Below, one piece after another: positions 6,235 to 30,368 of a stretch of DNA of 43,058 nucleotides. The notes under the pieces are model-generated. The model searched no databases. It saw only the letters and a program-made list of their open reading frames with translations, and was not told the DNA's origin. The translations under genes and the position numbers were made by a program. Positions within the stretch are counted from its first letter, which is position 1; every line of letters begins with the position of its first letter. The DNA is from Verrucomicrobiota bacterium (GTDB lineage: Bacteria > Verrucomicrobiota > Verrucomicrobiia > Limisphaerales > UBA9464). The DNA lies in contig VHCX01000027.1 of assembly GCA_016871615.1 (NCBI GenBank), positions 1 to 43,058 on the forward strand, in the 5' to 3' direction.

Positions 6235-8960
6235 GCCGCTCGACCCCGCCGCAGGTCCAGCGGCTGCTGTGGACCCGGTTCAGTTGGCGGCACGCGCGGC
6301 AGGCCCCGTGGACCACGGCCCTGCTGGTGCTCACCCTCGCCCTCGGCGTGGCCGTGTACTTGGCCATCCGCCTCGCCAACCGGGCGGCGGTGTCGAGCTT
6401 CCGCAACTTCACCGACGTGGTCACGGCCGAGAGCGACGGCATGATCCTCGCCCCGGCGGGCAGCCTGCCCGAGTCGCTGCTGACAGGCCTGCGGAAACAG
6501 TTTCCCGACACCCCGGTGCATTGGGTGCCGGTGCTCGAAAGCACGGCCGTGGAACCCGGCGACGGGTCCGAGGGCATCATCGGCAACCGAACGACCTACA
6601 CCCTGCTCGGCGTCGACTGGGTCGCCCTGCAGAACCTCGCCCAGGCGCGTCGTGCCCAGGGGCCGGAAACGGGCTCTGGTTCGCCCCCGGAGCCGAACCG
6701 GGCCCACCCATCGGCGGCGGTGCTGGCGCAGGACCAAGGCAGCGGCTCGGTCGGAGGCGCAACCCTCCAAGACGCCGGGACTCCGGGCGACCAAGCCCTG
6801 CTCTGGGCCCGTCTGCAGGACCCCCGGGCCGTGCTCGTTCCGGCGGCGGTGGCCGCCCGCCTCCGCTCCCCCACCCTGCGTCTGGTCATCCAGGAACGCA
6901 TCGTCGACCTCCGGGTGGCCGGGGTGCTGCCCGACGACCCCGAGCAACCGAGGGCTCCGGACAACCTGCTGCTGTTCGACCTGCCGGCCCTTCAGGCTCT
7001 CACCGCCCGCCCGGGCCAACTCGACCGCATCGAGTTCGTGCTGCCCGAGGGCCCCGACCGGCCGGCCCGCGCTTCCGCGTTGCGACGGGATCTGGAAGGA
7101 TGGGCCTCCGGCCGGTGGCTGCTGAGCAGCCCCTCCGAACGGCGGGACAACGCGGCCACGATGACCCAGGCCTTCCGGCTGAACCTGACCATCCTCTCCC
7201 TCCTGGCACTGCTGGTGGGTCTGATGCTGGTGTACCAGGCCCTCGACGGGGCCGTGGTACGTCGACGGGAGGAGATCGCCATCCTCCGTTCGCTGGGCGT
7301 GGAGCCGGGCCGGATCCGGCGGGCGTGGTGGATCGAGGCGGCGGTGCTGGGGCTGTGCGGCGGCGCGCTGGGCCTGCTGCTCGGTTGGGCCGGGGCGCAG
7401 GGGGCCGTGCGCGGGGTCGGCCAGACGGTCAATTCGCTCTACTACGCCACGACCGTGCGGTCGGCCTCGCTGGACCCGGTCGAGGCCGCCGTCGCCCTGA
7501 TCCTGGCCGTGGCGGCCAGCCTCGCGGCGGGAGGCTGGCCGGCCCGGCAGGCGGCCAACACGCCCCCGGCCCAGCGGCTCGGACGCGGAAGGGCCCAGGC
7601 CGGTTCTCGAGCCCCACGCTGGGTGCTTCCCGGAGCCTTGGCCCTGCTCGGCCTGGGCGGCCTGCTGGCGACGCTTCCGGCGCTGCGACTCGAGGGTGGC
7701 TCGAGGATCTCCCTTGCGGCCTTCGGCTCGGCCCTCACCTGGCTGCTCGGGGCCGGGCTGCTGGCCGGCCTGCTGCCGCCGATGGTCCTGGGTCGTCTGG
7801 CGGCATGGGATCGCCTGTCCGGCCCGGCCCGTCTGGGCTTGAGCCACCTGCGTCGCCCCACCGGCCGGCATCGGCTGGCCATCGCCGGCCTGGTCTGCGC
7901 CGTGGCGATGACCGCGGGCATGGCCATCCTCGTCGGCAGCTTCGACACCACCCTGCGCGGCTGGATCGAGCGCACCTTCATGGCCGACCTGTATGTGTCC
8001 AGCGAGGGCGCGCAGAGCGCCTCGACGCAGAATCGCATCCAGCCAGAGACCTGGAAATCGTTGGTCGCCGAGCCCGAGGTGGTCGCGGCGAACGTCGTGC
8101 AGGCCGTCGAGCTGCAGCTCCCCGGCGGATCCACCCTGCTCTTCGGCGGCAACCCGGCCTTCATGCGGGACCAGGCCCGCATCGCCTGGCGCGAGGCGCC
8201 GACCGGCGACGCGCTCTGGGATCCGGCCTGCAACAGCGGCCTGGCCCTGGCCAGCGAGAGTTTTTCGCACCGCTTCCGGTTGCACCGGGGCGACACCCTC
8301 ACCCTGCCGACGCCCACCGGGCCGAAGGTGGTGACGCTGGCGGGCATCTTCTCCGACTACGGCAACGAACGGGGCGCGGTGGTCGTCCAGCGCGAGCACT
8401 TCGCGGCCTGGTTCGGCGATGAACTGGCCACCAGCATCATCGCCAAACTGCGCGACTCCGCCGACGCCGCGGCGGTCCGAGCCCGCTGGAAGGCGGCGCA
8501 TCCGGGTCTGGCGGTCTACACGCAGCCGCACCTGCGGGGCGAGGCCCTCCGCATCTTCCGGCAAACCTTCGCCATCACCGACGCGCTCGAACTCATCGGG
8601 GTTGCCGTGTCGGTGCTGGGCTTGGGCTTCACCCTCGCCAGCCTGCTGTGGGAGCGTCGCGACGACCTGACCACGCTGAGGGCCCTGGGCTTCCGCCACG
8701 GTGAGATCGCCTGGGCGACGACGATCGAGAGCCTGGTCACCGCCACCGTCGGCATCGGGGTCGGACTCGCCGCGAGCCTGGCGCTGGGCTGGTTGCTGAT
8801 CCACCGGGTCAACGTCCAGACCTTCGGCTGGACCCTCGAGACCGATCCCCCGTGGCTCTGGATGACAGGCCTCGCGCTGGCGGTGCTCACCATGGCGGGC
8901 CTGACCGGGTGGAGCATCGGACGCTGGGGCGCCTCCCTGCCCGCCGAACGCGAAGAATGA
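6231..8960 (+). CDS. FtsX-family ABC transporter permease (LolC/MacB-like, duplicated core)
   Basis: 909 residues. An N-terminal membrane helix (about 28-48) is followed by a large extracytoplasmic domain. The first FtsX core has helices around 315-430, with the typical coupling segment RRREEIAILRSLG. Central helices begin near 470, a second extracytoplasmic domain follows (about 575-770), and a second FtsX core closes the protein (about 780-900) with ERRDDLTTLRALG. This is the long permease type carrying both halves in one chain. The first extracytoplasmic domain contains a Gly/Ser/Pro/Gln-rich stretch at about 142-183 that looks like an insertion. It overlaps the ATPase gene by 4 nt upstream and the AttH-like gene by 4 nt downstream, a tight three-gene operon. 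The substrate is unknown. Confidence 0.93.
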   Translation: MSRSTPPQVQRLLWTRFSWRHARQAPWTTALLVLTLALGVAVYLAIRLANRAAVSSFRNFTDVVTAESDGMILAPAGSLPESLLTGLRKQFPDTPVHWVPVLESTAVEPGDGSEGIIGNRTTYTLLGVDWVALQNLAQARRAQGPETGSGSPPEPNRAHPSAAVLAQDQGSGSVGGATLQDAGTPGDQALLWARLQDPRAVLVPAAVAARLRSPTLRLVIQERIVDLRVAGVLPDDPEQPRAPDNLLLFDLPALQALTARPGQLDRIEFVLPEGPDRPARASALRRDLEGWASGRWLLSSPSERRDNAATMTQAFRLNLTILSLLALLVGLMLVYQALDGAVVRRREEIAILRSLGVEPGRIRRAWWIEAAVLGLCGGALGLLLGWAGAQGAVRGVGQTVNSLYYATTVRSASLDPVEAAVALILAVAASLAAGGWPARQAANTPPAQRLGRGRAQAGSRAPRWVLPGALALLGLGGLLATLPALRLEGGSRISLAAFGSALTWLLGAGLLAGLLPPMVLGRLAAWDRLSGPARLGLSHLRRPTGRHRLAIAGLVCAVAMTAGMAILVGSFDTTLRGWIERTFMADLYVSSEGAQSASTQNRIQPETWKSLVAEPEVVAANVVQAVELQLPGGSTLLFGGNPAFMRDQARIAWREAPTGDALWDPACNSGLALASESFSHRFRLHRGDTLTLPTPTGPKVVTLAGIFSDYGNERGAVVVQREHFAAWFGDELATSIIAKLRDSADAAAVRARWKAAHPGLAVYTQPHLRGEALRIFRQTFAITDALELIGVAVSVLGLGFTLASLLWERRDDLTTLRALGFRHGEIAWATTIESLVTATVGIGVGLAASLALGWLLIHRVNVQTFGWTLETDPPWLWMTGLALAVLTMAGLTGWSIGRWGASLPAEREE

Positions 8961-10255
8961 ACCCCCGACGATTTCCATCCCGCGCCCGGACCTGCGGGCC
9001 GGTTCGGCACACCGGCCCGCGAACCGGGCTTCCCTCCATGTGGATCCTCGCCCTCGTCATCACCGCACTCGTCGCGCTGCCCAGACACGCCACCGATGCC
9101 CTCACCACTCCGGGCCCGGGCACCCGGGAATCGGCCCCGTCGACGGTCGCCCGGACATTCGCCCTGCCCCAACCCGGGCGGGTGTTCCAGTTTCCGGCCG
9201 ACCACGGCAGCCATCCGGAGTTCAAGATCGAGTGGTGGTACCTCACCGGCCACCTGACCTCCGAGGGCGGTCGGCGCCATGGCTTCCAGGCCACCTTCTT
9301 CCGGCGGGCGTCCGAGGTGTCGGCGGCGCCGCACCCCTCGGGCACGATTGCCCCTGCAGTGGCTTCCCCGGCCACCCCCCCTTCCCCTCCAAACTTCGCC
9401 AACGACGAATTCTTCCTCGCACACATGGCGTGGCTCGACGTCGACACGAAGACCTTCCGCCACGAGGAGCGCCTCAATCGCCGGGGCTGGGATGCCCAGG
9501 CCGACACCAACCGCCTGGACGTCCGCAACGGCAACTGGTCCCTCCAGGACCTCGGACCGGATGCCCAGGGAAACCCGACGCTCGAGTTGCGCGGAGGCAT
9601 CCAGGCCGACCTCTTCTGGCGCATGCGCCTGACGCCGAAGAAACCCCTGGTGGTCTTCGGCACCAACGGCGTTTCGCGCAAGGCCCGGGAACCCTCGGCG
9701 GCCAGCCACTATCTGACCTTCCCCCGGCTTTCGGTCACGGGCGAACTCCGGCGCGGATCCCAGACCGGGCGGATCGAAGGCGAAGCCTGGATGGATCATG
9801 AACTGAGCAGCAGCCAACTGGGCGAGGGCCAGGTGGGTTGGGACTGGACGAGCATCCAGTTCTTCGACGGTCGCGAACTCATGGCCTACCGCATGCGCCG
9901 CGACGACGGCAGCACCGACCCGTTCTCGACCGTCGCCTGGGTCGGCCAGGATGGCCGTGTGTCGCAGTGGGGACCCGACCGGTTCACCTGGCGCGGCGAG
10001 GGCCAATGGAAGAGCCCGCGCTCCGGCGGCACCTATCCGGCCACCGTCCTGCTCACCGTGCCCGAGCCCGACGGCCGCCCCGGGCCAACGTGGCGCATCG
10101 AACCGCTCTGTGCCGACCAGGAGCTCTCTGGCGGCATCGGCGGCGTGCCCTACTGGGAAGGCGCCTGCCGGGTGCTCGACGCCTCCGGCCGCGAGGTCGG
10201 CCGCGCCTTCGTGGAGATGACCGGTTACGCCGGCCACCTGCGCCGGGCCTTGTGA
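8957..10255 (+). CDS. AttH/CrtC-like lipocalin-fold exported protein
   Basis: 432 residues from ATG 8957, which overlaps the permease stop (ATGA). A hydrophobic segment at 28-43 (MWILALVITALVAL) indicates export; ATG 9038 is an alternative start that would place it at the N terminus. The family signature lies at residues 80-98 (PADHGSHPEFKIEWWY, then TGHL), matching the hydroxyneurosporene synthase/AttH group. Members have a double lipocalin-like fold. CrtC hydrates carotenoids, but AttH-type proteins encoded beside ABC transporters are of unknown function. No carotenoid genes are present here, so a hydratase role is not supported. From context it may bind a lipid-like substrate for the ABC transporter; this is inference. 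Confidence 0.87.
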   Translation: MNPRRFPSRARTCGPVRHTGPRTGLPSMWILALVITALVALPRHATDALTTPGPGTRESAPSTVARTFALPQPGRVFQFPADHGSHPEFKIEWWYLTGHLTSEGGRRHGFQATFFRRASEVSAAPHPSGTIAPAVASPATPPSPPNFANDEFFLAHMAWLDVDTKTFRHEERLNRRGWDAQADTNRLDVRNGNWSLQDLGPDAQGNPTLELRGGIQADLFWRMRLTPKKPLVVFGTNGVSRKAREPSAASHYLTFPRLSVTGELRRGSQTGRIEGEAWMDHELSSSQLGEGQVGWDWTSIQFFDGRELMAYRMRRDDGSTDPFSTVAWVGQDGRVSQWGPDRFTWRGEGQWKSPRSGGTYPATVLLTVPEPDGRPGPTWRIEPLCADQELSGGIGGVPYWEGACRVLDASGREVGRAFVEMTGYAGHLRRAL

Positions 10256-10520
10256 GCGCGCGTTTCGACGGATTGTCCGCCACCTGCATCCACGCCGGGG
10301 CCCGCGCAGGAAGAGGCGGGCTGGCGCCGGTCGCCCGGACCATCCGAGGCACCCGGCGGTGGGGCGACGTCCCAGCGCGCACGGACCCGGGCCCGGACGG
10401 CTCGTAGCCCCATCCCGATCCCCACCGGCTGGGACCCGGGCACGCAGGGGGAGCCGCCGGGGCGTGTCCAGAGCGGCCTGGTCGGCGGGTTGAACCCCGC
10501 GACAGGCACGCCGCGGGCGC

Positions 10521-11957
10521 TCAGGCCAGCGCGCCCGTGATGAGTTCGCCGTGCACGTCGGTGAGGCGGTGGTCGCGGCCGCCGGAGCGGAAGGTCAGCC
10601 GGTGGTGGTCGACGCCCATCAGGTGCAGGATGGTGGCGTGCAGGTCGTGCACCGCGCACGGCTTGTCCACCGCCCGGTAGCCGAACTCGTCGGTGGCACC
10701 GATGGCCGTGCCGCCCCGGACGCCGCCACCGGCCATCCAGACCGAGAAGGCGTAGGGATTGTGGTCGCGGCCGTTGGATCCCTGGGCGAAGGGGGTGCGC
10801 CCGAACTCGCCGGACCAGACCAGCAGCGTGGAATCCAGCAGGCCGCGCTGCTGGAGGTCGAGGATGAGGGCGGTGATCGGCTGATCCACGGCCCGGGCAT
10901 TGGCCTCGTGGCCGGCCTTCAGGTCGCTGTGCTGGTCCCAACGGTCGCCGATGGTGCGGGGGCAGGTCACCTCGATGAAGCGGACGCCACGCTCGACCAG
11001 GCGCCGCGCCAGGCAGCACTCCCGGGCGTAGATTCGGGTGGGCTCGAAGGGACTGTCGAACCCGTACATGGCCTTCGTCGCGGCGCTCTCGCCGTCCAGG
11101 GCGGACAGCTCGGGCACCGCCGACTGCATGCGGTAGGCCAGCTCGTGGTTGGCGATGGCGCTCTCGACCGCCTCGGCGCCGGTCTCGTGCGCGAAGGCCG
11201 AGTCGAGACGGCCGATCAGGTGGCGCTTGCGCTGCTGGAGCGCATCGGGATCGCGGGGGGTGGCGTCGGCAATGGTCTCACCCCGGGGCCGCAGGATGGA
11301 TCCCTGGTGGCGCGCCGGCAGGAACCCGGCCGAGAAGCAGTCGAGGCCGCCCGGCGGAACCAGCCCTCCCTCCACCACCACGAAGCCCGGCAGGTTGTCG
11401 TTCTCGCTGCCCAAGCCATACGACATCCACGCCCCCATGGACGGCCGCCCGGGAATGCCCAGGCCGGTGTGCAGGAAGTAGTTGGCGTTGGTGTGCTCGC
11501 TGAAGTTGCTGGTCATCGAGCGGATCACGCACAGCTCGTCGGCCACGGTGCGCAGGCGCGGGAACAGCTCGGAAATGGGCAGGCCCGACTGGCCGCACTG
11601 CGCGAACGTCCAGGGCGAGGCCAGGGTGTTGCCGTTGTTGTTGAACTGCGTGGGCGCCATGGGCAGCGGGAAGGGCTTGCCATGGTAGTCGGCCAGGCGC
11701 GGCTTGGGATCGAAGGTGTCCATTTGCGCGGGCCCCCCGTCCTGGTAGAGGAAGATCACGCTGCGCGCCTTGGCCCGCGCATGGGTGGCCGCCAGCGCCC
11801 GGGATTCGCTCGCCGCCGCGAGGGCCGCTCCGGCCGGGCCGAAGAGGCCTCCGAGCGCCAGCAAGCCCAGGCCGCTGCCCGAGGCCGCCAGCAGTTCACG
11901 TCGGCTCAGGGGCACCGGGCGGGTGCGTCCGCAGGGGTGGGTCCGGGGTGGGTTCAT
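10521..11957 (-). CDS. DUF1501 family exported protein
   Basis: 478 residues. A Tat-type signal is present: SRRELLAASG (Arg19-Arg20) followed by a hydrophobic, Ala/Gly-rich segment. The mature part has the DUF1501 features IFLYQDGGPAQMDTFDPKP near the start, a central WDQHSD segment, SGEFGRTP, and the C-terminal LTDVHGE. DUF1501 belongs to the alkaline phosphatase/sulfatase-like fold, but no member has a well-established activity. Its start overlaps the stop of the upstream cytochrome/DUF1553 gene by 4 nt, a pairing typical of Planctomycetes and Verrucomicrobia. A second such pair is at 25045-29442. Probably acts outside the cytoplasm together with its partner. Confidence 0.93.
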   Translation of the reverse strand: MNPPRTHPCGRTRPVPLSRRELLAASGSGLGLLALGGLFGPAGAALAAASESRALAATHARAKARSVIFLYQDGGPAQMDTFDPKPRLADYHGKPFPLPMAPTQFNNNGNTLASPWTFAQCGQSGLPISELFPRLRTVADELCVIRSMTSNFSEHTNANYFLHTGLGIPGRPSMGAWMSYGLGSENDNLPGFVVVEGGLVPPGGLDCFSAGFLPARHQGSILRPRGETIADATPRDPDALQQRKRHLIGRLDSAFAHETGAEAVESAIANHELAYRMQSAVPELSALDGESAATKAMYGFDSPFEPTRIYARECCLARRLVERGVRFIEVTCPRTIGDRWDQHSDLKAGHEANARAVDQPITALILDLQQRGLLDSTLLVWSGEFGRTPFAQGSNGRDHNPYAFSVWMAGGGVRGGTAIGATDEFGYRAVDKPCAVHDLHATILHLMGVDHHRLTFRSGGRDHRLTDVHGELITGALA

Positions 11958-14902
11958 CGGAGGAAGACGAATTCCTTGGAGGCGAAAAGGGCATGGGCCA
12001 GGGCCGCGTAGGCGGCCCGCTCGCGGGCCACCGGGGGTTGGTCCGAGGCGGACGCACGCTCGTCGGCAAGGAACCCGAGGGCCAGCCGGACCTCGTCCTC
12101 CTTGGGTCCGCGCGCGAAGGCCGAAAGCCACAGCCGTTCGATCCGCTCCCGGTCGGCGGCCGGCGTCGGCAGCGGCGGGCCATCCGACGGGGGGATGAGC
12201 GTCTCGGCCCAGCGCCCGGCCATGAGATGGACCAACTCGCTGTTCATGAGCGCCAGCGCCTGCGCGGGCACGTTGGAGGCGTGGCGGCGGCCGCAGGTGG
12301 TGGCCGGCGCGGGCTGGTCGAAGGCCTGAAGGAACGGGTCGAGGAAGTTGCGGCGGGTCTCCACGTACACGCTGCGGCGACGCGCCCCGTCGACTGGGCC
12401 GGACTTGCCGGGCCGACCGCGACCCTGCATGTGCTCGGTCAACCGCGCCGGCACGCTGGCACCACCCAGGGTGCGGTCGAGGGTGCCCGAGGCCGCGAGC
12501 ATCGCATCGCGGATCTGCTCGGCGTCGAGGCGGCGCGCCGGCATGGGCGACCACGCGTCGGCCGAAGACCGGCCGGGATCGGAGGGATCGGCGGCCGACC
12601 GGTAGGCGTGAGACAGCACCAGGTCGCGGAGGAGCTGCTTGAAGGTCTGCCCCTGGGCCAGTCTCGAAGCGAGGTGGTCGAGCAGCTCCGGGCTCCAGGG
12701 AACCCCGCCCAGCTGACCGAAATCATCCGGGGTGTCGACGATGCCCCGACCGAAGAGCTTGAGCCAAATCCGGTTGGCCGTGGTGCGCCACAGGAAGGGC
12801 CGCCGCGGATCGGTCAACGCCTCCACCAGCATCCGACGGCCGCTGCCGGCAACCGGCTGCCGGGCGTCGAGGCCCAGCACCGAAAGGCGGGCCAGCGGCG
12901 CCGGCTCGCCATAACGATGGGCCGCACCACGCACGTGGATCGGCTCGTCCAGCGAGCCTCCTTCGTCGGCCAGCAGGGCGCGGATGGGCGGGGCGCAGGC
13001 CAGCAGGGCCTCACGCGCCTCCACGGCCCGGGCACGGGCCTCGGCCAATCCGGGCGTCGACGGGTTCCACCCGGTGGCCGGACCATCGGCATCCCACGCC
13101 TCGGCCGGCGGCGGCGTGGCGGTGTCGGTCATGAGGATCGTGTCGACCTCGATCCAGCCCGGGCCGTCGTCCTGCACCTCGAAGTGCACCCGCTCGCTCT
13201 GGTAGCGCGAGAAGTCGAAGGTCTCGATGCGCCAGGCGACGTCGCGCGGATCCTTGGCCGCCTCGGCCCCCTCGGCACGGGGCAGTCGGCGACGGAATCC
13301 CTCGAAAAGCAGGCTGGCATGCTTGTCGAGCCAGTAGTTGTCGACGACGGCGCGGAAGGCGGCGTCGCTGCCGCGCAGGCGAAGGTGGAAGTATCGCTTG
13401 GAGATCGGGACGTCGGCCGACCGGGCGCTGCCGGCCAGCGGCAGGGCCAGGCGGGCGCTGTCCAGGGTGCCCGTCTCGGCCGGGCGCAGGCCCCCGGAGG
13501 CATCCAGTGCCAGCAACGAGCCGGAGGCGTCGAAGGCCCGCCCCGAACGCGACCATGCCGCACCCCCACGAGCCACGTCGTCGAGCACCACGACGCCCGA
13601 CGGCGACACCGGCCGGGTGGAGGCCACCACCCCGGAATGCCGACCCGCCTCCTCGAGGGCCTCGCGGGCGGCGGCGGCGCGCGCCGGGGTCCGCGCATCG
13701 GCATCGAGGAACCCCTCGATGCGCCGGGTGTTCCGCGCGACGCCGAAAAGGGCGTAGAAATCGCGCGCCGGGATGGGGTCGAACTTGTGGTCATGGCAGC
13801 GCGAGCACGCGATCGACAGACCGAAGAGGCTGCGCCCGGCGACGTCCACGGCCCCGGCCAACCGGTCGGCCTCGTCCTGCCGGACATCCACCGGGGAGTG
13901 CGTGGCGGGCCCCAGGAACCACCAGGCCGTACCAAGCGGCGCGGCGTTGGGAAGGCCCAGTCCGGGCCGGGGCGGCAGCAGGTCGCCCGCGATCTGTTCG
14001 GCGACAAAGCGGGCCGGGGCAACATCGGCGTTGAAGGCTTCGACGACGTAGTCGCGGTAGCGCCAGGCGTGGGGAATCTCGTAGTCGAACTCGTGGGCCA
14101 TCGTCTCGGCGAATCGGGCCAGATCGAGCCAGTGACGACCCCAGCGCTCGCCGAAAGCCGCGTCGGCCAGGTAGCGGTCGACCTGCCGCGCCAGTCGGCC
14201 GGGATCGGGGTCGGCCACGAAGGAACGAACCTCCTCGGGTGTCGGCGGCAGGCCGCGCAAGTCGTAGGACAACCGACGCAGCAGCGCCGCCGGATCGACA
14301 TCCCGTACCGGAGCCCGCAGGCCGGCCGCCTCCCGGTGGGCCAGCACGAAGGCGTCGATCCCGGTCTCGCACCAGGCACCGTCGCGGACCGTCGGCACAC
14401 CAGGATCCTGCAACGGCCGGAAGGCCCACGGCTCGGCGTAGGCGGCCCCGGCCTGGATCCATTGCTCGAGGGTCTGCACCTCGGCCGGCGTCAGCGGTTC
14501 GCCCTTCGGCGGCATGCGCTCGTCCAGATCGGCGTGGGTCACGCGGGCCAGCAGGGCGCTCGCGGCGGGCTTGCCCGGCACGATGGCCACCACCCCGGAC
14601 TTCAGCGCCGACGTGGCCCCGTCGAAGGTGTCGAGCCGCAACCCCGACTTGCGCGCCTCCGCATCCGGCCCGTGGCAGGAGTAGCACTTGGCCGCCAGGA
14701 TGGGCCGCACCGCCCGGCTGAAATCGGGCCCCGGGGCGGCGGCCGCCGAGGGCATCACCCACCCGCCCAACGCCAGCAGACAACCCACCACCCACCGTAG
14801 TCCGGCAACGCCGAGCGACCCCACGCCAAAGGGCCGGACGCTCGGCTCGATCCGAACATCGGCTCGGCCCGTGGGACGTTGCGGGGTGGAATTCTTGGAC
14901 AT
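11954..14902 (-). CDS. Planctomycete-type cytochrome c / DUF1549 / DUF1553 protein
   Basis: 982 residues. A signal or anchor segment lies at about 30-55, then a c-type haem motif CYSCH (Cys73, Cys76, His77) in a PSCyt1 domain with a possible axial Met in ERMPPKG. DUF1549 (PSCyt2) follows from about 165 and carries the family motif CSRCHDHKFDPIP near 365-377. A variable middle region (about 400-680) looks like a beta-sandwich domain. The C-terminal DUF1553 (PSD1) runs from about 700 and includes NRIWLKLFGRG. The molecular function of this family is unknown. Translation is coupled to the DUF1501 gene. ATG 14902 lacks a clear Shine-Dalgarno site, and a TAGCTT box lies 7 nt upstream, so the mRNA may be leaderless. 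Confidence 0.93.
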   Translation of the reverse strand: MSKNSTPQRPTGRADVRIEPSVRPFGVGSLGVAGLRWVVGCLLALGGWVMPSAAAAPGPDFSRAVRPILAAKCYSCHGPDAEARKSGLRLDTFDGATSALKSGVVAIVPGKPAASALLARVTHADLDERMPPKGEPLTPAEVQTLEQWIQAGAAYAEPWAFRPLQDPGVPTVRDGAWCETGIDAFVLAHREAAGLRAPVRDVDPAALLRRLSYDLRGLPPTPEEVRSFVADPDPGRLARQVDRYLADAAFGERWGRHWLDLARFAETMAHEFDYEIPHAWRYRDYVVEAFNADVAPARFVAEQIAGDLLPPRPGLGLPNAAPLGTAWWFLGPATHSPVDVRQDEADRLAGAVDVAGRSLFGLSIACSRCHDHKFDPIPARDFYALFGVARNTRRIEGFLDADARTPARAAAAREALEEAGRHSGVVASTRPVSPSGVVVLDDVARGGAAWSRSGRAFDASGSLLALDASGGLRPAETGTLDSARLALPLAGSARSADVPISKRYFHLRLRGSDAAFRAVVDNYWLDKHASLLFEGFRRRLPRAEGAEAAKDPRDVAWRIETFDFSRYQSERVHFEVQDDGPGWIEVDTILMTDTATPPPAEAWDADGPATGWNPSTPGLAEARARAVEAREALLACAPPIRALLADEGGSLDEPIHVRGAAHRYGEPAPLARLSVLGLDARQPVAGSGRRMLVEALTDPRRPFLWRTTANRIWLKLFGRGIVDTPDDFGQLGGVPWSPELLDHLASRLAQGQTFKQLLRDLVLSHAYRSAADPSDPGRSSADAWSPMPARRLDAEQIRDAMLAASGTLDRTLGGASVPARLTEHMQGRGRPGKSGPVDGARRRSVYVETRRNFLDPFLQAFDQPAPATTCGRRHASNVPAQALALMNSELVHLMAGRWAETLIPPSDGPPLPTPAADRERIERLWLSAFARGPKEDEVRLALGFLADERASASDQPPVARERAAYAALAHALFASKEFVFLR

Positions 14903-14909
14903 CGAAAAG

Positions 14910-14915
14910 AAGCTA
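14910..14915 (-). promoter_or_regulatory. Candidate -10 box TAGCTT, 7 nt before the DUF1553 gene start
   Basis: On the minus strand TAGCTT is followed by CTTTTCG and then the ATG at 14902. With a usual 6-7 nt distance to the start site, transcription would begin at or next to the A of ATG. The -35 region is weak (TTTCCT about 17 nt upstream). The pattern resembles two better examples at 37903-37932 and 38798-38825. Confidence 0.3.
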
Positions 14916-14999
14916 CCACCGATGCCATCGGGAGGAAATGCCCCAATCCAAGGGATCATGCCCCCGAATGGAGGGGATTCGAGCCGGGTGACATCCGTG

Positions 15000-15022
15000 G
15001 GTCCACCCCTGTGCCATGGACC
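15000..15022. promoter_or_regulatory. Inverted repeat GGTCCA-N11-TGGACC in divergent intergenic region
   Basis: Perfect 6-bp arms at 15000-15005 and 15017-15022 lie between the divergent DUF1553 gene and the small exported protein gene. The spacing would suit an operator or a short hairpin. It may be chance in GC-rich DNA. Confidence 0.2.
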
Positions 15023-15076
15023 TGTTTCAGGTTCCCAACGGGAGCTTCTCGAGGCCATGCTCGGACCGCTTCACCC

Positions 15077-15667
15077 ATGAACCCCGACCCAACCGGAACC
15101 GGCCGACGGTGGCATCTGAACGACCTCCGACTCCAGGCGTCTTGGATTCTGATGTCGTGCCTGCTATGGGCATCATGTTCCCCGCCCTCCGCGCAAACGC
15201 CCTCCGCACGGGAGACCACCTCCAGCGATTCCGCCCGAGCCGCCGCCCCGACGACGCCGGCCGGCGTGCTTCCACGACCGGAACCTGCGGCTCCGGATGT
15301 TCCGTCCTCGGCGGTGCCCGTGGTGCTGGGCGAGGTGGACAACGGGTTCCGCAAGGTGCCCATCCCGTTGGGCACCGACCATGGTTTCCTGGTCATGAAT
15401 GCGGGCGACGAGGATCAGGCGTCGCCCCGGATCGCCCTGGGGCGAAAGAATCGACGCGAGGTGGTCGCCTTCAAGACGGTCGCGGATTTCGAGGCGGCGC
15501 TCCGACGGATTCCCGCCGGCACCCTGTTGCATCGTCACGACCGGTGCCTGCGTCCGGCCTCCAGCGGTCTTGAGGCGGCGTTCCTGGAGGGCGTGGAGCA
15601 GGCCCTCGCGCGGTCCGACGTCCAGGTCGCGCCGGACACGGTGGTGACCTGCCTCTGCGGACGTTGA
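15077..15667 (+). CDS. Small exported hypothetical protein
   Basis: 196 residues. After a polar N terminus there is a hydrophobic stretch at 21-33 followed by Cys34 (LLWASC), which resembles a lipoprotein signal, although Trp at -3 is atypical. A low-complexity Ser/Pro/Ala linker (about 35-85) leads to a compact domain (about 88-196) with VADFEAALRRIPAG, LLHRHDRCL and a C-terminal CLCGR. I do not recognise the family. Codon use and the alternation of polar and hydrophobic residues look like real coding, more so than the opposite strand. Its stop is about 25 nt from where epimerase homology on the minus strand breaks off, so the junction between the two may be an old rearrangement. Confidence 0.6.
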   Translation: MNPDPTGTGRRWHLNDLRLQASWILMSCLLWASCSPPSAQTPSARETTSSDSARAAAPTTPAGVLPRPEPAAPDVPSSAVPVVLGEVDNGFRKVPIPLGTDHGFLVMNAGDEDQASPRIALGRKNRREVVAFKTVADFEAALRRIPAGTLLHRHDRCLRPASSGLEAAFLEGVEQALARSDVQVAPDTVVTCLCGR

Positions 15668-15689
15668 ACGGTCCAAGGCCCGCGCAGGC

Positions 15690-16045
15690 GCCCTCAGCAT
15701 CCGCAGCGAGCGCCCCTCCAGGTCGGCGAGGAACCACATCTTGCCGCCCGGACCGTGGCCGTGCCGACGCGAGAACGGCGCGCAGGATCGGGCGACCTCC
15801 AGCCATTCGGGACGGGCCTCCACCGTGCGGAAGGCCGTGGCGAACATCCACCCGGCACGCCCCTGGAACCACACGCTCTTGTCGGAGTCCATGAGGGATC
15901 CGTTCCGGTCGAGGCAGGTGAAGATCCCGCCGTGCTCGCGGTCCCAGCCATGCCGGACCCAGAAGGGCAGCACGTCGCGGGTGAGCGTCTCGGAATAGAA
16001 CGCGGCCAAGCGGGCCCGCTCGGCGGGATGCTCAAGCAGGCTCAT
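15690..16045 (-). pseudogene. N-acylglucosamine 2-epimerase-like gene, truncated (N-terminal fragment)
   Basis: Starting at ATG 16045, with GGAGAGG upstream as a plausible ribosome binding site, the first ~118 residues match the start of the AGE/mannose isomerase family. Recognisable segments are LPFWVRHGWDREHGGIFTCL, DSDKSVWFQGRAGWMFATAF and a segment near residues 100-117 ending GRSLRML. Family members are usually about 390-420 residues, an (alpha/alpha)6 barrel with catalytic histidines in the missing part. After about position 15690 the frame stays open to 15173 but only reads antisense through the small exported protein gene and no longer looks like an epimerase. The fragment would lack the active site, so it is called a remnant. 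Confidence 0.7.
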
Positions 16046-16425
16046 CGTCGGGCCTCTCCGGCTCTGGCCCGTGAACCCGCATCGGGTCGCCTTGGACCCC
16101 AACGAAAACTCCGTCCCCTGGTTGTCTCGCGCATGATCGTGGGGAGCGAGCCTGCCGGGAGCGCTTCGGAAGCTCAACGGTCCTTCCCCGGGCAGCCCTG
16201 AACTCGCCTGCAAGGCGGGGCTCGCGCCCGGGGCAGGCAGTCCGATTGGTCCGCGCCGTTGCCGGCGTTTTCGGGGAAGGCACCCTGCCCCTGCCCACGA
16301 GCCTCTCGACCCGCCCAAGCGGGCACCGCACCCGACCAGAAATGCTCCAACCATGCGCCCGGCGCCGACGCCCCATAAGGCGGGCATGGTGTTCCAGGAG
16401 CCTCCGGCGTAGGGTCTGCACCACG
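16046..16425. other. Intergenic region, no recognised feature
   Basis: 380 bp between the truncated epimerase (minus) and the CoaB-like gene (plus). It has no convincing coding frame, no RNA gene I recognise and no strong repeat. A TAGGGT box (16410-16415) lies 10 nt before the CoaB start and could be its -10 element; the -35 is weak. Confidence 0.5.
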
Positions 16426-17073
16426 ATGCGTTGCCTCGTGACGGCGGGTCCCACCGTGGAGCCCCTCGACTCGGTGCGTCGGTTGACCAACCACTCGACC
16501 GGCACGCTGGGCACCTCGCTGGCCAACCATCTGGCCTGCGTGGGCCATGAGGTGCGGCTGCTGCGCAGCCGAAGCGCCACCGCGCCGCCCCCCATCCACG
16601 CCGTGGCCACCGAGGCCTTCAGCACCACCCGCGAGCTGCTGGCCTGCCTCGAGGGCCATGCCACCCGGGAACCGGTGGCGATCTTCCACGCCGCGGCCGT
16701 CGCCGACTTCGAGGTGGGTAGCGTGTTCCGACGGGAGGCCGACGGGTCGATGATCCCGCTCTCGGCCGGCAAGCACTCCACCCGTGAGGGTGGGCTGTGG
16801 GCCGAACTGCGGCCGACCCCCAAGATCCTCGCCCGCCTGCGCGACCTGTATCCGCAGGCCTGGATCACCGGCTGGAAGTACGAGGTGGATGGATCGCGCG
16901 ACGAGGTCCTTGAGCGGGCCCGGCAGCAGTCGACGGCCTGCCGATCCGACGCGGTCGTGGCCAACGGCCCGGCCTACGGTCCCGGGTTCTGCTGGTTGTC
17001 CGGCGGCCTCGAACACCATCTGGACGACGGGGTCGCCCTGAACAGGTGGCTGGCGGACCGGCTCGGCCGGTGA
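16426..17073 (+). CDS. CoaB-like phosphopantothenate-cysteine ligase domain protein
   Basis: 215 residues of the DFP/CoaB family. It shows VTAGPTVEPLDSVRRLTNHS then TGTLG (4-28), the family's nucleotide-binding opening, AAAVADFEV (89-97), LSAGKHS with Lys116, and ADAVVANGP-like SDAVVANGPA (174-183). CoaB joins 4'-phosphopantothenate and cysteine in coenzyme A synthesis. In most bacteria it is fused behind the decarboxylase CoaC; here it stands alone and CoaC is not in the window. Thr/Asn-His-Ser-Thr replaces the usual Ser-Asn-Arg-Ser, so substrate or nucleotide preference may differ. ATG 16426 was chosen because homology begins immediately; an open frame extends upstream without coding character. 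Confidence 0.8.
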   Translation: MRCLVTAGPTVEPLDSVRRLTNHSTGTLGTSLANHLACVGHEVRLLRSRSATAPPPIHAVATEAFSTTRELLACLEGHATREPVAIFHAAAVADFEVGSVFRREADGSMIPLSAGKHSTREGGLWAELRPTPKILARLRDLYPQAWITGWKYEVDGSRDEVLERARQQSTACRSDAVVANGPAYGPGFCWLSGGLEHHLDDGVALNRWLADRLGR

Positions 17074-17145
17074 TGCTGCAGGAGTCCGATTTCCGCTCCC
17101 TCGATACCGCCGCCCCCAGAGAATCCCCGACCTCCGAGACCCCCA

Positions 17146-18639
17146 TCAGGCCGATGGTGGCGCGCCGTGACGGTCGGCTCCATCGGCCCCATCGGCTCCG
17201 TCCGATGGAACGGGGCCCTCGAATTTGTCCCCGGATTTGTCCCCGGATTTGCCCTCCGCCGTCCACGCGGTCTCCGACACCCACCGGAGCGCCCCCTCCA
17301 GGTCGGCGTATTCCCCGTCCAGTTGGGCGGCGTAGGCCTGCTGGAGCAGTTTTCCCAAGGCCGGTCCCCCGACCCATCCCCGGGCCAGCAGATGACGCCC
17401 CTGCAGGATCGGCGCCGGCGCAGCCGCCTGCAGCTGAAGGGCGCCTGCGGCCTCGCGAAGCTGCTGCACCGACCGAGGCACCCCGGCCGGACGCGGGGGG
17501 CGCCCCGAGGCGTCGGCGGTCATCACGGCGCAGAGTTCGTCGATGGTCGAGGGCCGGAGCCGCACGGACAATCGGCGAACCATGCGTGCGGACGGATCCT
17601 CGGAGTGGACCATGTGGTTGGTCACCAGCGGCACCACCCGGTCGACCAGCGTCTCCTGGAAGCCGATGCGCCGCAGGAAGGCCGCAGCGAGGCCTCCACC
17701 AACGCCCTCGTGGCCGGGCGAGACGACCCGCTCCCGGCCATCCCGCACCTCGGTCCGGGTGCAGGTCGCCTTGCCCGTGTCGTGCAACAACACGGCCATC
17801 ATCAGGACCAGCCGGCGCTCCGCCGGGGACGCCTTCCAGTCGGGATCGGCGACCAGCGCATCCACCGCATGCCCCGTGTGGATCCAGACATCGCCCTCGG
17901 GATGCCACAGCGGATCCTGAGGGACCCCCACCACCGCGGCCAGCTCCGGCAGGGGCCCCAACCACCCGCTGTCCTTGAGGAAGGCGAGCCCCATCGAGGG
18001 ACGGACCGAGCGGGTGGCCCACTTCAGCCACTCCTCGCGCACCCGCTCCACGGCCAGCTCCTCGTAGGCGCCGACGATGGATCGGCACAGGGCCAGGGTC
18101 TCGGGCGCGCCCCGCAGGGCGAAGCGGCCGGCGAACTGCATGCCGCGCAGGACGCGCAGCGGATCCTCCGGAAAGGCCGGGCTCGTGTGGCGCAGGAGCC
18201 CCGCCCGGAGGTCCGCCCGCCCGCCATGCGGGTCCATCAGCCCGCCGGTCCGCGGGTCCCAGAGCATCGAGTTGATCGTGAAGTCGCGCCGTGCGGAAGC
18301 CTCGGCCGGGTTGAGGTCGGGATCGAACTCGATGTCGAACCCCTTGTGGCCGGGGCCTCGCTTGGAATCCCTGCGGGGCACCGAGAAATCCCACACGGCC
18401 CCGCTGGCATGGGTGAGCTTCACCACCCCGAAGGACTTGCCCACCCAGTCCGCCCGGCCATGCCGCGAGAGCACCCGGACCAGGTCGGGATACGCCACGC
18501 CGTACACCTCGATGTCGATGTCCACGACGGGCACGCCCAGCAGCCAGTCCCGCACACAGCCGCCGACCAGGTAGGACCGGCCCAGCTCGGAGGTGGACCT
18601 GAGCAGCGCCAACAGTTCGGGAGGCAGGATGTCGACCAT
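17146..18639 (-). CDS. tRNA nucleotidyltransferase/poly(A) polymerase family protein with HD domain
   Basis: 497 residues. The class II nucleotidyltransferase head has GGCVRD (26-31), the metal-binding pair Asp40/Asp42 in VDIDIE, and RRDFTINSM (117-125), the hallmark of CCA-adding enzymes. A head-and-neck region follows, then an HD phosphohydrolase-like domain with LLHDTGKA (His286, Asp287). It probably adds or repairs the CCA end of tRNAs, while the HD part may remove cyclic phosphates. The last ~35 residues are low-complexity repeats (KSGD units, then GAD units) encoded by short tandem DNA repeats. ATG 18639 is preferred; an in-frame GTG at 18678 would overlap the cupin gene. Last gene of a glmM-cupin-cca operon. 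Confidence 0.92.
   Translation of the reverse strand: MVDILPPELLALLRSTSELGRSYLVGGCVRDWLLGVPVVDIDIEVYGVAYPDLVRVLSRHGRADWVGKSFGVVKLTHASGAVWDFSVPRRDSKRGPGHKGFDIEFDPDLNPAEASARRDFTINSMLWDPRTGGLMDPHGGRADLRAGLLRHTSPAFPEDPLRVLRGMQFAGRFALRGAPETLALCRSIVGAYEELAVERVREEWLKWATRSVRPSMGLAFLKDSGWLGPLPELAAVVGVPQDPLWHPEGDVWIHTGHAVDALVADPDWKASPAERRLVLMMAVLLHDTGKATCTRTEVRDGRERVVSPGHEGVGGGLAAAFLRRIGFQETLVDRVVPLVTNHMVHSEDPSARMVRRLSVRLRPSTIDELCAVMTADASGRPPRPAGVPRSVQQLREAAGALQLQAAAPAPILQGRHLLARGWVGGPALGKLLQQAYAAQLDGEYADLEGALRWVSETAWTAEGKSGDKSGDKFEGPVPSDGADGADGADRHGAPPSA
17174..17254. repeat. Short tandem repeats in the 3' end of the nucleotidyltransferase gene
   Basis: Three 9-bp units of the form TCGGCTCCA (17174-17200) encode the Asp-Gly-Ala repeats. 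About 2.7 units of the 12-bp ATTTGTCCCCGG (17223-17234, 17235-17246, partial from 17247) encode Lys-Ser-Gly-Asp repeats. Both unit lengths are multiples of three, so copy-number change would keep the frame. Confidence 0.85.
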
Positions 18640-18668
18640 GGGATCGGCGGGCCCCGCGGCGCCGGGGT

Positions 18669-19112
18669 TCAGCGGCACTCCGGCAGGCCGAGACTGCGGC
18701 GAAGGCTCGCCCAGGGCTCATGGTCCCACTCGTTGACCGTGCCAGGCTCCTCGGCTTCCACCGGCGAGAGCATCGCCAGGAAGATGACCGGTTCGCGGAA
18801 GGGGTTGTAGGTGCCGTGGATCTCGTTCTTCGGCATCAGCACCATTTCGCCGGGCTTGAGGATCCGGTGTTCCTGGCCGCACCACTGCTCGGCCTGACCG
18901 GACAGCACATAGATGATCTCCTCGCGCGTCGGGTGCCGGTGGAAGCCATGGCAGCGTCCCGCATCGAGGGTGGCCCGGACCAGCAGCAGGGATTCGCAGG
19001 GCACGATGCCCGGACGCGAGAGCCACGTGTTGAGCGTGTGGGGCGTCAGGTCGGTCTGGCTTTCGGCCGCCGTGACGAAGCGCCGGCCGGAGTCCGCCCG
19101 CGGGGTGCTCAT
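18669..19112 (-). CDS. Cupin-domain protein
   Basis: 147 residues. A single cupin_2 barrel covers about 40-120, with the metal-binding pattern GFHRHPTREEIIYVLSG (the two His plus Glu of motif 1) and a shorter motif 2 around PKNEIHGTYNP. Such proteins bind a metal and often act as sugar isomerases, dioxygenases or ligand sensors; the specific role is not clear. It lies 4 nt after the glmM stop on the same strand and 29 nt before the tRNA nucleotidyltransferase start, so it is probably co-transcribed with both. No signal peptide. Confidence 0.88.
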   Translation of the reverse strand: MSTPRADSGRRFVTAAESQTDLTPHTLNTWLSRPGIVPCESLLLVRATLDAGRCHGFHRHPTREEIIYVLSGQAEQWCGQEHRILKPGEMVLMPKNEIHGTYNPFREPVIFLAMLSPVEAEEPGTVNEWDHEPWASLRRSLGLPECR

Positions 19113-19116
19113 GGGG

Positions 19117-20505
19117 TCAATCGGCCTTGCCGACCTGCCGGCGGATGGAGCCGCAGATGGCCGAGGACCACCGCTCCATGACCGCCGCGTCCGGGCCCTC
19201 GATGAGCAGGCGCGCCTTGGGTTCGGTGCCCGAGTAGCGCAGCAACACGCGTCCGCCGTGAGGCTGGACCTCCGACTCAGCCTGCTTCACCAGGTCGAGA
19301 ATCTCCTCCAGTTCGTCGAAGGGGGTCTTCACCCGGACGGCCACATTGGTCACCAGTTGCGGATACCGGGTCCAGCAACGGGCCAGCCTCGAGAGCGGCT
19401 CACCGCGGGTGCGCATGGCGCCGAGGATCTGCAACGCGGCGACCAGGCCGTCGCCGGTGCTGCTGTGGTCGCGGAAGATCAGGTGCCCGCTCTGCTCGCC
19501 GCCGAAGTTGAATCCGTTGGCCAGCATGCAATCGATCACATTCTTGTCGCCGACGGCCGTGCGCACCACCTCGCCACCAGCGGCGCGGATGGCGACATCG
19601 AGGCCTGCGTTGCTCATCACCGTGGCCACCAGCATCTTGTTGGCCAAGCGGCCCTCGGAAAGCATCTGGAGGGCGCTGATGGCCATGATGTCGTCGCCGT
19701 CCACGAGCTGGCCGGCCTCGTCGCACAGCAGCACCCGGTCGGCGTCCCCGTCGTGGGCGATGCCGAGGTCCGCCCGGTATTCGCGCACCTTGCTGCAGAT
19801 CAGCTGGGGGTGCATCGAGCCGCAGTCGCGGTTGATGTTGATGCCGTTGGGCTGCGTGCCGAAGGCGATGACCTCGGCCCCGAGTTCCTGGAGGACCATG
19901 GGGGTGGTCTTGTAGGAGGCGCCATGCCCGCAATCCACGACGATGCGCATGCCCTCGAGGGTCAGCGTCTTCGGAAAGGATGACTTGGCCTGCTCGACGT
20001 AGCGGCCGATCGCGTCGTCCACGCGCAGGGCCTTGCCGATCTCGCCGGCCGTCGGGCGGAAGGACTCGATCGCACCGCTGAAGACCAGGTCCTCGATCTG
20101 GCTTTCGGTCGGGTCGTCGAGCTTGTAGCCGTCGGGACCGAAGAACTTGATGCCGTTGTCCTCGTAGGGATTGTGCGAGGCGGTGATCACGATGCCGGCG
20201 TCGGCCCGCATGGAGCGCGTCACGTAGGCCACGCCCGGCGTGGGCAACGGTCCGATGAAGATCACGTCCACCCCCATCGACAACACCCCGGAGCTGATCG
20301 CGTTCTCGAGCATGTAGCCCGAGAGGCGAGTGTCCTTGCCGATGACGATGCGGTGCCGCACCCGGTTCCGGGCCTGGCCGTTGCGGTTCTTGAACACATG
20401 CGCCGCGGCCCGGCCCAGCTTCAGGGCCGTCTCGGCCGTCACCGGCTCGATGTTGGCCCGGCCCCGCACGCCGTCGGTCCCGAAGATCCGTTTCTGGTTG
20501 GACAT
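19117..20505 (-). CDS. glmM: Phosphoglucosamine mutase GlmM
   Basis: 462 residues. Converts glucosamine-6-phosphate to glucosamine-1-phosphate for UDP-GlcNAc and cell-wall synthesis. FGTDGVRG opens the protein, the phosphoserine loop is TASHNPYEDNG (Ser110), the metal-binding loop is DGDADR, the sugar-binding segment is GGEQSGH and the phosphate-binding site is RYSGTEPKARLL near the C terminus. All match GlmM better than other phosphohexomutases. ATG 20505 is preceded by AAGAAG at short distance. First gene of a minus-strand operon with the cupin and tRNA nucleotidyltransferase genes; divergent from recQ. Confidence 0.96.
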   Translation of the reverse strand: MSNQKRIFGTDGVRGRANIEPVTAETALKLGRAAAHVFKNRNGQARNRVRHRIVIGKDTRLSGYMLENAISSGVLSMGVDVIFIGPLPTPGVAYVTRSMRADAGIVITASHNPYEDNGIKFFGPDGYKLDDPTESQIEDLVFSGAIESFRPTAGEIGKALRVDDAIGRYVEQAKSSFPKTLTLEGMRIVVDCGHGASYKTTPMVLQELGAEVIAFGTQPNGININRDCGSMHPQLICSKVREYRADLGIAHDGDADRVLLCDEAGQLVDGDDIMAISALQMLSEGRLANKMLVATVMSNAGLDVAIRAAGGEVVRTAVGDKNVIDCMLANGFNFGGEQSGHLIFRDHSSTGDGLVAALQILGAMRTRGEPLSRLARCWTRYPQLVTNVAVRVKTPFDELEEILDLVKQAESEVQPHGGRVLLRYSGTEPKARLLIEGPDAAVMERWSSAICGSIRRQVGKAD

Positions 20506-24855: not shown

Positions 24856-25044
24856 GCTCGCCTGTGGACCGTTAGCATCTCGCCGCCCGAGCCGCGGATT
24901 CAAGCGTCATTTGCGGGACCCCATCTGCGGACATGCGGAGGATTTGGACGGCCGAAGGAAATCACCTGCCGCCTGCCCGACGCCGGCTTCCCCGGGAAGC
25001 CTCCCGGCGCCCCCCCGGGAAGATCGGAAGACCGGCCTTGAAAA

Positions 25045-28020: not shown

Positions 28021-28032
28021 GCGTTCAACCCC

Positions 28033-29442
28033 ATGAGCCTGAATCCCGCCACCATGACCCGAAGGGCATCGATCCGGTCCCTGGTGGGAGGCTCCCTCCT
28101 GTTGCCCGGCCTCGTCGCCGATCTGCTGGGCAGGGAGGGCACGTCCGGCGTGGGCGGTCCATCCACCGATCCCCTCGCCCCCCGGGCCCCCCATTTCCCG
28201 GCCAGGGCCAGGCGGGTGATCTTCATCTTCTCCAACGGCGGGGTTTCCCACATGGACACCTTCGACCACAAGCCGAAGCTCTTCGCGGCCGACGGCAAGA
28301 CCCTCGGCGTCGGGGGCGGACTCTCAAACCAGCAACGCCGGTTGTTGCGGCCTGGCTGGGAGTTCCGTCCGGGCGGCCGCTGCGGAACGCTGGTCAGCGA
28401 CCTCTTCCCGCACCTGCGCCAGTGCATGGACGAGATCTGCCTGATCCGCTCGATGAAGAGCGACGACAACGAGCACTACCAGGCCACGCTCGCCATCCAC
28501 ACCGGTTCGTTCTTCTTCGCCCGCCCAAGCTTGGGCTCGTGGGTCAGCTATGGGCTCGGCACCCTCGACCAGAATCTGCCATCGTTCATGGTCATCTCGG
28601 CGGGCTCGCCCTACGCCGGCACGCAGATCTTCAACAACGACTTCCTTCCAGCCTACCATCAGGGCGTCCGCGTGATCCCCGGGCGCGAACCCATCGCCAA
28701 CCTCGACCGCCGGGCGGGACCAGCCGGGGCTTTCCAGGAACTGGAGCTCGGTCTCGCCGAGGCCCTGAACCGGCGGCACCTGGACGCACGCGGCCACGAC
28801 GCCGGTCTCGCCGCGCGGATCCGCACCTTCGAGACGGCCTTCCACATGCAGACCGAGGCGCGGGAGGTCTTCGACCTGTCCCGGGAGTCGGAAGCGACGC
28901 ATGAGCTGTACGGCCTCAAGCGAGGCCAGACCGACGGGTTCGGCTGGCCCTGCCTCGTGGCCCGTCGCCTCGCCGAGCGCGGGGTGCGGTTCATCGAACT
29001 GGTGGACGGATCATCCTCCCACAACTGGGACCAGCACGGGGACATGGCCGAGCATGCCCGGCACGCCCGCAACATCGACCAGCCCATCGCCGGCCTGCTG
29101 CGCGACCTGAGACAACGTGGGATGCTCGACGACACCCTGGTCGTGTGGACCACGGAGTTCGGACGCACTCCCGGCGTGGACGGCGACAAGGGACGCGGGC
29201 ACCACAGCGCGTGCTTCTCGTCCTGGCTGGCCGGGGCCGGCGTGCGCGCCGGCACGACCTACGGCAGCACCGACGAACTCGGGGCCAGTGTCGCCGAGGA
29301 CCGCGTCCACGTGCACGATTTCCACGCCACGCTGCTTCACCTCCTGGGCATGGATCATGAGCGCCTGACCTTCCGACACGGTGGCCGTGACTACCGGCTC
29401 ACCGACGTGCACGGCCATGTGGTGAGGGCTCTCCTCGCCTGA
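28033..29442 (+). CDS. DUF1501 family exported protein (second copy)
   Basis: 469 residues. A Tat-like N terminus MTRRASIRSLVGGSLLLPGL is followed by DUF1501 features: IFIFSNGGVSHMDTFDHKPK, NWDQHGDM, WTTEFGRTPG and the C-terminal RLTDVHGHV. It parallels the gene at 10521-11957 but is clearly diverged. It lies 12 nt after the DUF1553 partner gene, so the two are one operon. Probably exported and working with its partner; activity unknown. Confidence 0.93.
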   Translation: MSLNPATMTRRASIRSLVGGSLLLPGLVADLLGREGTSGVGGPSTDPLAPRAPHFPARARRVIFIFSNGGVSHMDTFDHKPKLFAADGKTLGVGGGLSNQQRRLLRPGWEFRPGGRCGTLVSDLFPHLRQCMDEICLIRSMKSDDNEHYQATLAIHTGSFFFARPSLGSWVSYGLGTLDQNLPSFMVISAGSPYAGTQIFNNDFLPAYHQGVRVIPGREPIANLDRRAGPAGAFQELELGLAEALNRRHLDARGHDAGLAARIRTFETAFHMQTEAREVFDLSRESEATHELYGLKRGQTDGFGWPCLVARRLAERGVRFIELVDGSSSHNWDQHGDMAEHARHARNIDQPIAGLLRDLRQRGMLDDTLVVWTTEFGRTPGVDGDKGRGHHSACFSSWLAGAGVRAGTTYGSTDELGASVAEDRVHVHDFHATLLHLLGMDHERLTFRHGGRDYRLTDVHGHVVRALLA

Positions 29443-29494
29443 GCGGTGGCGACTGGACACGGGGGTCACGACGGCCCGCCGGCCGCCTGCGACC

Positions 29495-30181
29495 TCACCG
29501 GATCCACCTCTCGGCCGCCTGCCAGGCCCAGGCCCCGATTTCCAGGGTGTGCCGCGCGGCCCATCGCAGGGCGGTGCCCACACCGGGGCGGCCGGACAGC
29601 CAGGACATGCCCAGCAGCAGGATGAGGGCGTTGCCCAGCCAGATGAGCGAGCCCGAGAACAGGAATCCCTCGCCCACGAGGTCCGGCTGGCGGATGCGGA
29701 GGATCACCACCGTCATCGTCACGTGGAACCCGTAGGTGAATCCCAGTCCGGCCTGATAGAGCGGCAGGACCCACCAGGCGGCACCCCAGCGCCAATGGAC
29801 GGCGGCCATGACCAGCGACCACAGGATGGAATAGATCGGCAGGAAGTACGGCGACAGGGCGATGAAGGCGTTGCTCCGGCTGAGCCGGACCGCGCCTCCC
29901 CGGCTGCTCACCTGGAAGGATTGGACCCGCGCACCACACATCCAGGCGCTCAGGGCATGGGTCAACTCGTGTCCGAGCACGTAGAGCCACATGGGCCGGG
30001 GCAACTGGAGGTAGATCACCCCCCAGATCCCGAGGCCGACCAGGAGCGGCATCCAGAACGGGCCGGCATCGACGGCGATCCGCCCGACCTCCCAGACCGC
30101 CCGGCACAGTCCAAGGTTGATCGGCAACAGGAGCAGGGCGATCGCCCAGCGGATCGCACGGCGCACCCAACGCGACAGCAT
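29495..30181 (-). CDS. Membrane protein with M50-type HExxH metalloprotease motif
   Basis: 228 residues with about five hydrophobic helices (10-30, 42-60, 108-130, 138-160, 185-205). The zinc-protease motif HELTH (71-75) lies in a membrane-associated segment GHELTHALSAWMCGARV, the arrangement of M50 (site-2-type) proteases. The usual third-ligand motif with LDG is not visible; the corresponding region reads ALSPYFLPIY. So it may be an M50-like protein of altered active site, or the ligand differs. Its ATG (30179-30181) overlaps an in-frame ATG of the divergent helicase gene, which more likely starts at 30369. Confidence 0.75.
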   Translation of the reverse strand: MLSRWVRRAIRWAIALLLLPINLGLCRAVWEVGRIAVDAGPFWMPLLVGLGIWGVIYLQLPRPMWLYVLGHELTHALSAWMCGARVQSFQVSSRGGAVRLSRSNAFIALSPYFLPIYSILWSLVMAAVHWRWGAAWWVLPLYQAGLGFTYGFHVTMTVVILRIRQPDLVGEGFLFSGSLIWLGNALILLLGMSWLSGRPGVGTALRWAARHTLEIGAWAWQAAERWIR

Positions 30182-30368
30182 GACGGCGGGGAGACTCCCG
30201 GGACCCGGCCCGGCCGAACAGCCCAAAGCGACCGGAAGGCGACCGGCCGACCGGGCGGACCATGCCGCCACTCCGTCCGGGCCTGCGCGCCACGCACCAC
30301 CCACGGAGGTGGCCCCGACCTTGAAGACCCGGGATCCGCAGGGCAACCTCCCAGGGCTGATCGCCCGA

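Follow-up and report, generated by a model that had tools for sequence, protein, structure and literature searches.

In the window, that is, the whole stretch of 43,058 nucleotides of Verrucomicrobiota DNA that was analyzed, a 118-residue piece of an N-acylglucosamine 2-epimerase (AGE) is, as judged from sequence comparison, most likely a recent sugar-epimerase pseudogene (probability of roughly 0.88), which would have arisen by relocation of a gene block and by a deletion. The original prediction had offered three explanations for the fragment (a recent deletion or rearrangement, retention for some reason or a wrongly joined assembly), and the first of them fits best, as both a deletion of ~0.9 kb of AGE and a block relocation are seen. 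The features at the break are the following, in window positions:

15692 to 16045, minus strand: AGE remnant, residues 1–118; DNA homology to the congener G010 ends at 15697, residue 116
16046 to 16191, minus strand: retained AGE upstream region, from DNA alignment with G010
15672 to 15696, no strand: deletion joint, 25 nt here vs. 915 bp in G010 (L040:4689-5603)
15173 to 15691, minus strand: part of the AGE frame that runs on as antisense and lacks homology; open as codon usage would predict
15077 to 15667, plus strand: small lipoprotein-like gene, intact; family with the ending TCLCG(R/K)

The frame of the remnant starts with the ATG at 16045 on the minus strand and forms a 290-aa ORF, with homology confined to its first ~116 residues. 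In line with the original prediction, the N-terminal AGE part is intact, and neither a stop nor a frameshift was found inside it. It matched PF07221 with 29.1 bits (cut-off 23.4) at profile positions 1-72 of 347 only, and NCBIfam NF052547 at positions 3-105 of 384 with 99.1 bits, which is under the whole-protein cut-off of 600; its membership of the AGE family is supported by an over-cut-off match to a partial profile only. Within AGE/RnBP (PF07221; PDB 8bry, 2gz6, 6f04 and 1fp3), it is the N-terminal part of the family that the remnant matches. Identity to the G010 AGE was 85% over 118 residues, and to that of a second congener, G012, 76% over 117 residues. The intact G010 protein itself matched PDB 8bry over residues 13-396 (E 2.7e-142) and pig AGE 1fp3 (E 1.2e-63).

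PMC6333288 describes the AGE fold as an (alpha/alpha)6 barrel with two critical histidines, names Arg58, His373 and Glu309 in the Nostoc enzyme, where Arg58 and His373 lie at the active site, and gives Arg63 and Glu314 of the Pedobacter enzyme as the proposed acid/base pair for proton transfer. The remnant comprises 118 of 413 residues, so that the window copy lacks about 295 residues and falls short of the 390-410 or so residues that a whole (alpha/alpha)6 barrel takes. Five active-site positions of the G010 AGE (R63, H249, E318, H382 and R385) were placed through alignment to 2gz6, onto which the active-site numbering of the Anabaena enzyme (H239/E308/H372/R375) was transferred. R63 alone is left in the remnant and the other four are deleted; unlike AGE/RnBP proteins, the window copy is thus without both checked histidine positions and the glutamate position. 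With less than one third of the barrel and one of five checked active-site positions left, no epimerase activity should be expected from the remnant.

The deletion was sized by DNA alignment of window positions 13500-19500 with contig C219 of G010 and with G012. DNA homology to G010 covers 15697-16191 and, after the 25-nt gap, continues leftward from 15671; the alignment halts at window 15671 (G010 4688) and restarts at 15697 (5604). Similarly, the alignment with G012 halts at 15667 (5146) and restarts at 15697 (6040), which leaves 29 nt in the window vs. 893 bp in G012. Since neither the AGE tail nor the spacer is conserved across species, the left edge of the joint is not sharp. The 915 bp of G010 encode the remainder of its 413-aa AGE, while the G012 gene is an ORF of 435 aa, or 409 aa counted from the aligned start. 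As had been foreseen, homology ends abruptly beside the stop codon of the oppositely oriented small gene (15665-15667), at a distance of about 30 nt. In pseudogenes produced by terminal deletion at rearrangement joints, homology stops abruptly and the rest is intact; the window copy is alike, its homology ending abruptly at the joint with the rest intact.

A continuation of AGE in another frame or on another contig of the same genome, which would have spoken against a truncated gene, was rejected, as protein and profile searches gave no remaining part. Residues 119-413 of the G010 AGE found no match at E<=10 in this 95.6% complete genome, in a search that had no positive control of its own; with the whole G010 protein as the query against the genus genomes, full-length matches were obtained in G010 and G012, and in the window's own genome only residues 1-119 were matched. 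A PF07221 profile search of the own genome detected one piece over the cut-off, namely the remnant, and one sub-cut-off hit on contig C130 (17.1 bits). When the DNA lost relative to G010 and G012 was compared with six stretches of the own genome, short matches only were obtained, the best being 19 exact bases (E 0.002). The genome is a metagenome-assembled genome (MAG) of 183 contigs with 3.5% contamination, and a point against the pseudogene reading is that a further AGE could sit in the portion beyond the 95.6% covered.

The comparison set comprised 59 genomes, the own one included: 19 in the genus (18 besides the own) and 40 outside it. The 118 residues had matches in 19 of the 59 genomes and, within the genus, in 3 of 19 (the own genome, G010 and G012); in the 16 other genus genomes, which are 67-97% complete, no AGE match was found at E<=0.001. 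Among the 23 non-self match rows, 21 lie in stop-to-stop frames of at least 400 codons (two of these rows being one G037 gene); full-length alignment covered those of G010 and G012 only. The idea, raised in the original prediction, of a short AGE-like protein conserved as a family was rejected, since no short form occurs among the relatives in the 59 genomes. The remaining two rows, both from G054, contain internal stops. These two matches, L013 (G054:C32:1352-1597) and L025 (G054:C41:17989-18300), carry their stops in frame, three TGA in one and one TGA plus three TAA in the other, and AGE may be decaying in G054 too.

Full-length orthologues in the same context were found in 2 of the 18 other genus genomes, G010 and G012. 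In both, a NanM-like kelch gene is followed by full AGE on the same strand, and then by the convergent small gene, the PSD1 gene and the DUF1501 gene; when reverse-complemented, the G010 contig is identical to JAJTFN010000136.1, a public MAG contig (Verrucomicrobium sp. isolate 49614_E7). Beyond the NanM-like gene lies a gene without a Pfam match and, in G012, RmuC thereafter. The original prediction had considered that full AGE and the small gene might be separate loci in relatives; they are instead adjoining and convergent in G010 and G012, as they are around the remnant. Its description of an AGE fragment beside an unknown exported protein was right as to the fragment, whereas the small gene is an old, intact neighbour of AGE.

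The remnant marks one border of a ~6 kb block (10263-16377) that consists of the DUF1501, PSD1/PSCyt2 and small genes and the AGE remnant. The further features of this block and of its surroundings are:

8852 to 10255, plus strand: CrtC/lipocalin-9 gene left of the insertion
10263 to 10529, no strand: left joint of the relocated block, unaligned to the block or to the empty site of the congeners
10521 to 12002, minus strand: DUF1501 protein (PF07394), part of the moved block; 5' end approximate
11954 to 14902, minus strand: PSCyt1/PSCyt2/PSD1 protein (PF07635, PF07583, PF07587), moved with the block; start approximate
16192 to 16377, no strand: right joint of the relocated block, without alignment to either of the G010 contigs; searches gave no repeat family
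16426 to 17073, plus strand: DFP-domain (phosphopantothenate-cysteine ligase-like) gene right of the insertion

The block is absent from this site in all three congeners whose contig was compared (G010, G012 and G011). There, the end of the CrtC/lipocalin-9 gene directly precedes the DFP-like gene, and the sequence left of 10262 is joined to that right of 16378, with 70, 38 and 86 bp between the aligned parts of G010, G012 and G011, respectively; a match of G015 at this site lies 106 bases from a contig end and stands outside this three-congener comparison. Synteny with G010 also ends to the right of the remnant, at 16191, and the G010 counterpart of the DFP-like gene is located on another contig, C188.

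In the own genome, the NanM-like gene (81% identical to that of G010) is found on contig C13 (L059:6486-7688) and is followed by a glucuronyl-esterase-like gene (ORF 7692-9146, with similarity to congeners from 7964), the NanM/esterase joint lying at about 31.69-31.96 kb of C13 (L059:7688-7964). In G017, about 1.7 kb separate the esterase-like gene from the block, at the end formed by DUF1501; G016 has the small gene on the opposite side of DUF1501, and here the distance between the esterase-like gene and the small gene is about 1.6 kb. Further, in G001, G007, G011, G015, G017 and G018 the small gene is flanked on its other side by sequence that matches the own C13 at about 20.2-21.4 kb. Since neighbours of the block in the congeners now stand together on C13, this contig appears to be its old home and the window's contig (C27) its new one. 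The old gene order was reconstructed from several congeners, the contigs of G010 and G012 ending in or just after DUF1501, short of the esterase side.

The ancestral order would accordingly have been NanM-like gene, full AGE, convergent small gene, PSD1 and DUF1501. The DUF1501-PSD1-small gene-AGE block would then have moved to the site between the CrtC-like and DFP-like genes, with the NanM-like gene staying on C13, and the AGE end of the moved block would have lost about 0.9 kb, from residue ~117 to the end. Move and deletion may have taken place in one break-repair episode, or the deletion may have come after AGE had parted from its neighbour.

The joints are known from assembled contigs of one MAG, and an assembly or binning error would mean that the contig joins non-adjacent pieces and that the real AGE is whole. 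The number of contigs and the contamination given above would favour such an error, as would the cut of AGE within 30 nt of the neighbouring gene and the occurrence of three joints (10263-10529, 15672-15696 and 16192-16377) within 6.1 kb. However, the absence of the block from the donor contig C13 is independent evidence, so that two errors would need to agree; exact repeats among the joint zones do not exceed 12 bp; the missing AGE part is on no contig; and the small gene occurs only once in the genome. Owing to the independent agreement of C27 and C13, we consider an assembly error unlikely.

The longest exact repeat common to joint zones, that of C13 included, measured 12 bp and stands as a direct repeat at positions 10299 and 15677. 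Among the three window joints, a shared 12-mer arose in 144 of 2000 resamplings, and this repeat was therefore rejected as meaningful and taken as chance. The C13 joint and the left joint have at most 11 bp in common, and the left and right joint zones had no exact repeat of at least 10 bp in common, or one of 10 bp when wider ranges were used. Elsewhere in the genome, the joint sequences recurred only as one 39-base stretch (83%) and one 25-base stretch (92%). The terminal or genome-repeated joint sequences of a mobile element (an insertion sequence or a composite transposon) were thus not observed. Non-homologous break repair may lie behind the move of the block. A hairpin at the right joint was rejected as a special element, being no more stable than shuffled sequences (z 0.69); its sequence occurs once in the window and, with three mismatches allowed, had two other matches in the genome vs. 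one for a reversed control.

With respect to selection, dN/dS between the window and G010 was 0.15-0.16 for the remnant and 0.13 for PSD1, and between G010 and G012 it was 0.13 both for the part equivalent to the remnant and for the rest of AGE. As the remnant's value is near those of PSD1 and of intact AGE, most of the branch was probably passed under selection as a full working enzyme, and the break would be recent. Lineage-specific amino-acid changes in 116 residues numbered eight in the window only and four in G010 only, which would amount to a slight relaxation and weighs against the pseudogene reading; four of the eight fall in residues 107-113, beside the break (Fisher p 0.0017, for a zone picked after the data had been viewed).

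These values bear on whether a short protein, truncated or chimeric and of 118-290 aa, has been preserved in a role of its own. The frame, its start codon and the DNA upstream remain in place, and the low dN/dS vs. G010 could be read in the same sense; yet that ratio may be inherited from before the break, the window-only changes cluster beside it, the relatives offer no short form, and the antisense tail can be ascribed to codon usage. Retention as a short protein is consequently very unlikely. The original prediction was correct in that the frame stays open as antisense to the small gene, as far as 15173. When the small protein was kept fixed and synonymous codons were redrawn from local genes, 1467 of 2000 versions had this antisense frame still open over 165 codons or more, and the long extension is therefore an expected, trivial by-product of codon usage. 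That the chimeric 290-aa frame, made of the AGE start and small-gene antisense, is expressed with an acquired role, i.e., as a new gene at the joint, is extremely improbable.

The upstream DNA also includes a 39-nt run (window 16153-16191 vs. L040:6060-6098 of G010) that is 95% identical and is perhaps an AGE promoter or operator, or a chance run.

The small gene was present in 12 of the 19 genus genomes (loci L028-L038 among them) and, weakly (E 6.7e-4), in one of the 40 others; dN/dS between the window and G010 was 0.38. The window's protein had no Pfam or NCBIfam match over the cut-off. In all 12 aligned genus proteins, a cysteine follows a hydrophobic stretch and the ending TCLCG(R/K) is present; measured against the lipobox consensus, the conserved cysteine after the hydrophobic stretch suggests a lipoprotein.

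AGE converts ManNAc and GlcNAc into each other, and sialic acid is the substrate of NanM-type mutarotases. The arrangement in G010 and G012, where AGE is immediately preceded by a co-oriented NANM-family gene, resembles sialic-acid catabolic genes that combine a NanM-type mutarotase (PF24996) with an AGE-type ManNAc epimerase. The kelch proteins of G010 and G012 scored 83.1 and 98.7 bits against PF24996 (cut-off 45); the NanM-like proteins thus pass the Pfam cut-off but fall below those of NCBIfam, so that sialic acid is a putative substrate. The pairing suggests a sialic-acid role in these two genomes. In contrast, the pair is split in the own genome and its AGE broken. Replacement of AGE by NanE (PF04131) was rejected: none of the 19 genus genomes gave a NanE match, in a search whose control was positive in 8 of 14 known genomes. 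With AGE broken and NanE absent, the own genome has no intact ManNAc epimerase gene for a NanM-AGE sialic acid module, and the AGE-based route of ManNAc/GlcNAc interconversion has likely been lost in this cell. Its NanA-like protein reached 143.5 bits vs. a cut-off of 281, and PF00701 genes were found in all five genomes searched, three to four in each, including G011 and G015, which are without AGE.

The minus-strand frame beginning at 16045 should consequently not be annotated as an epimerase, nor should the genome be credited with AGE-based ManNAc/GlcNAc interconversion. A literature search returned nothing on this locus, which is a clear example of a block move that splits two neighbouring sugar genes and breaks the one at the edge; beyond correct annotation it is of little importance, being ordinary gene decay.

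Elsewhere in the window, the minus-strand frames 8516-10237, 24907-28269 and 29466-33554 had no Pfam match and are probably shadow frames. The DNA at 26058-26735 and 29077-29415 resembles the block's PSD1 and DUF1501 genes, and these two stretches are probably paralogues within the window.
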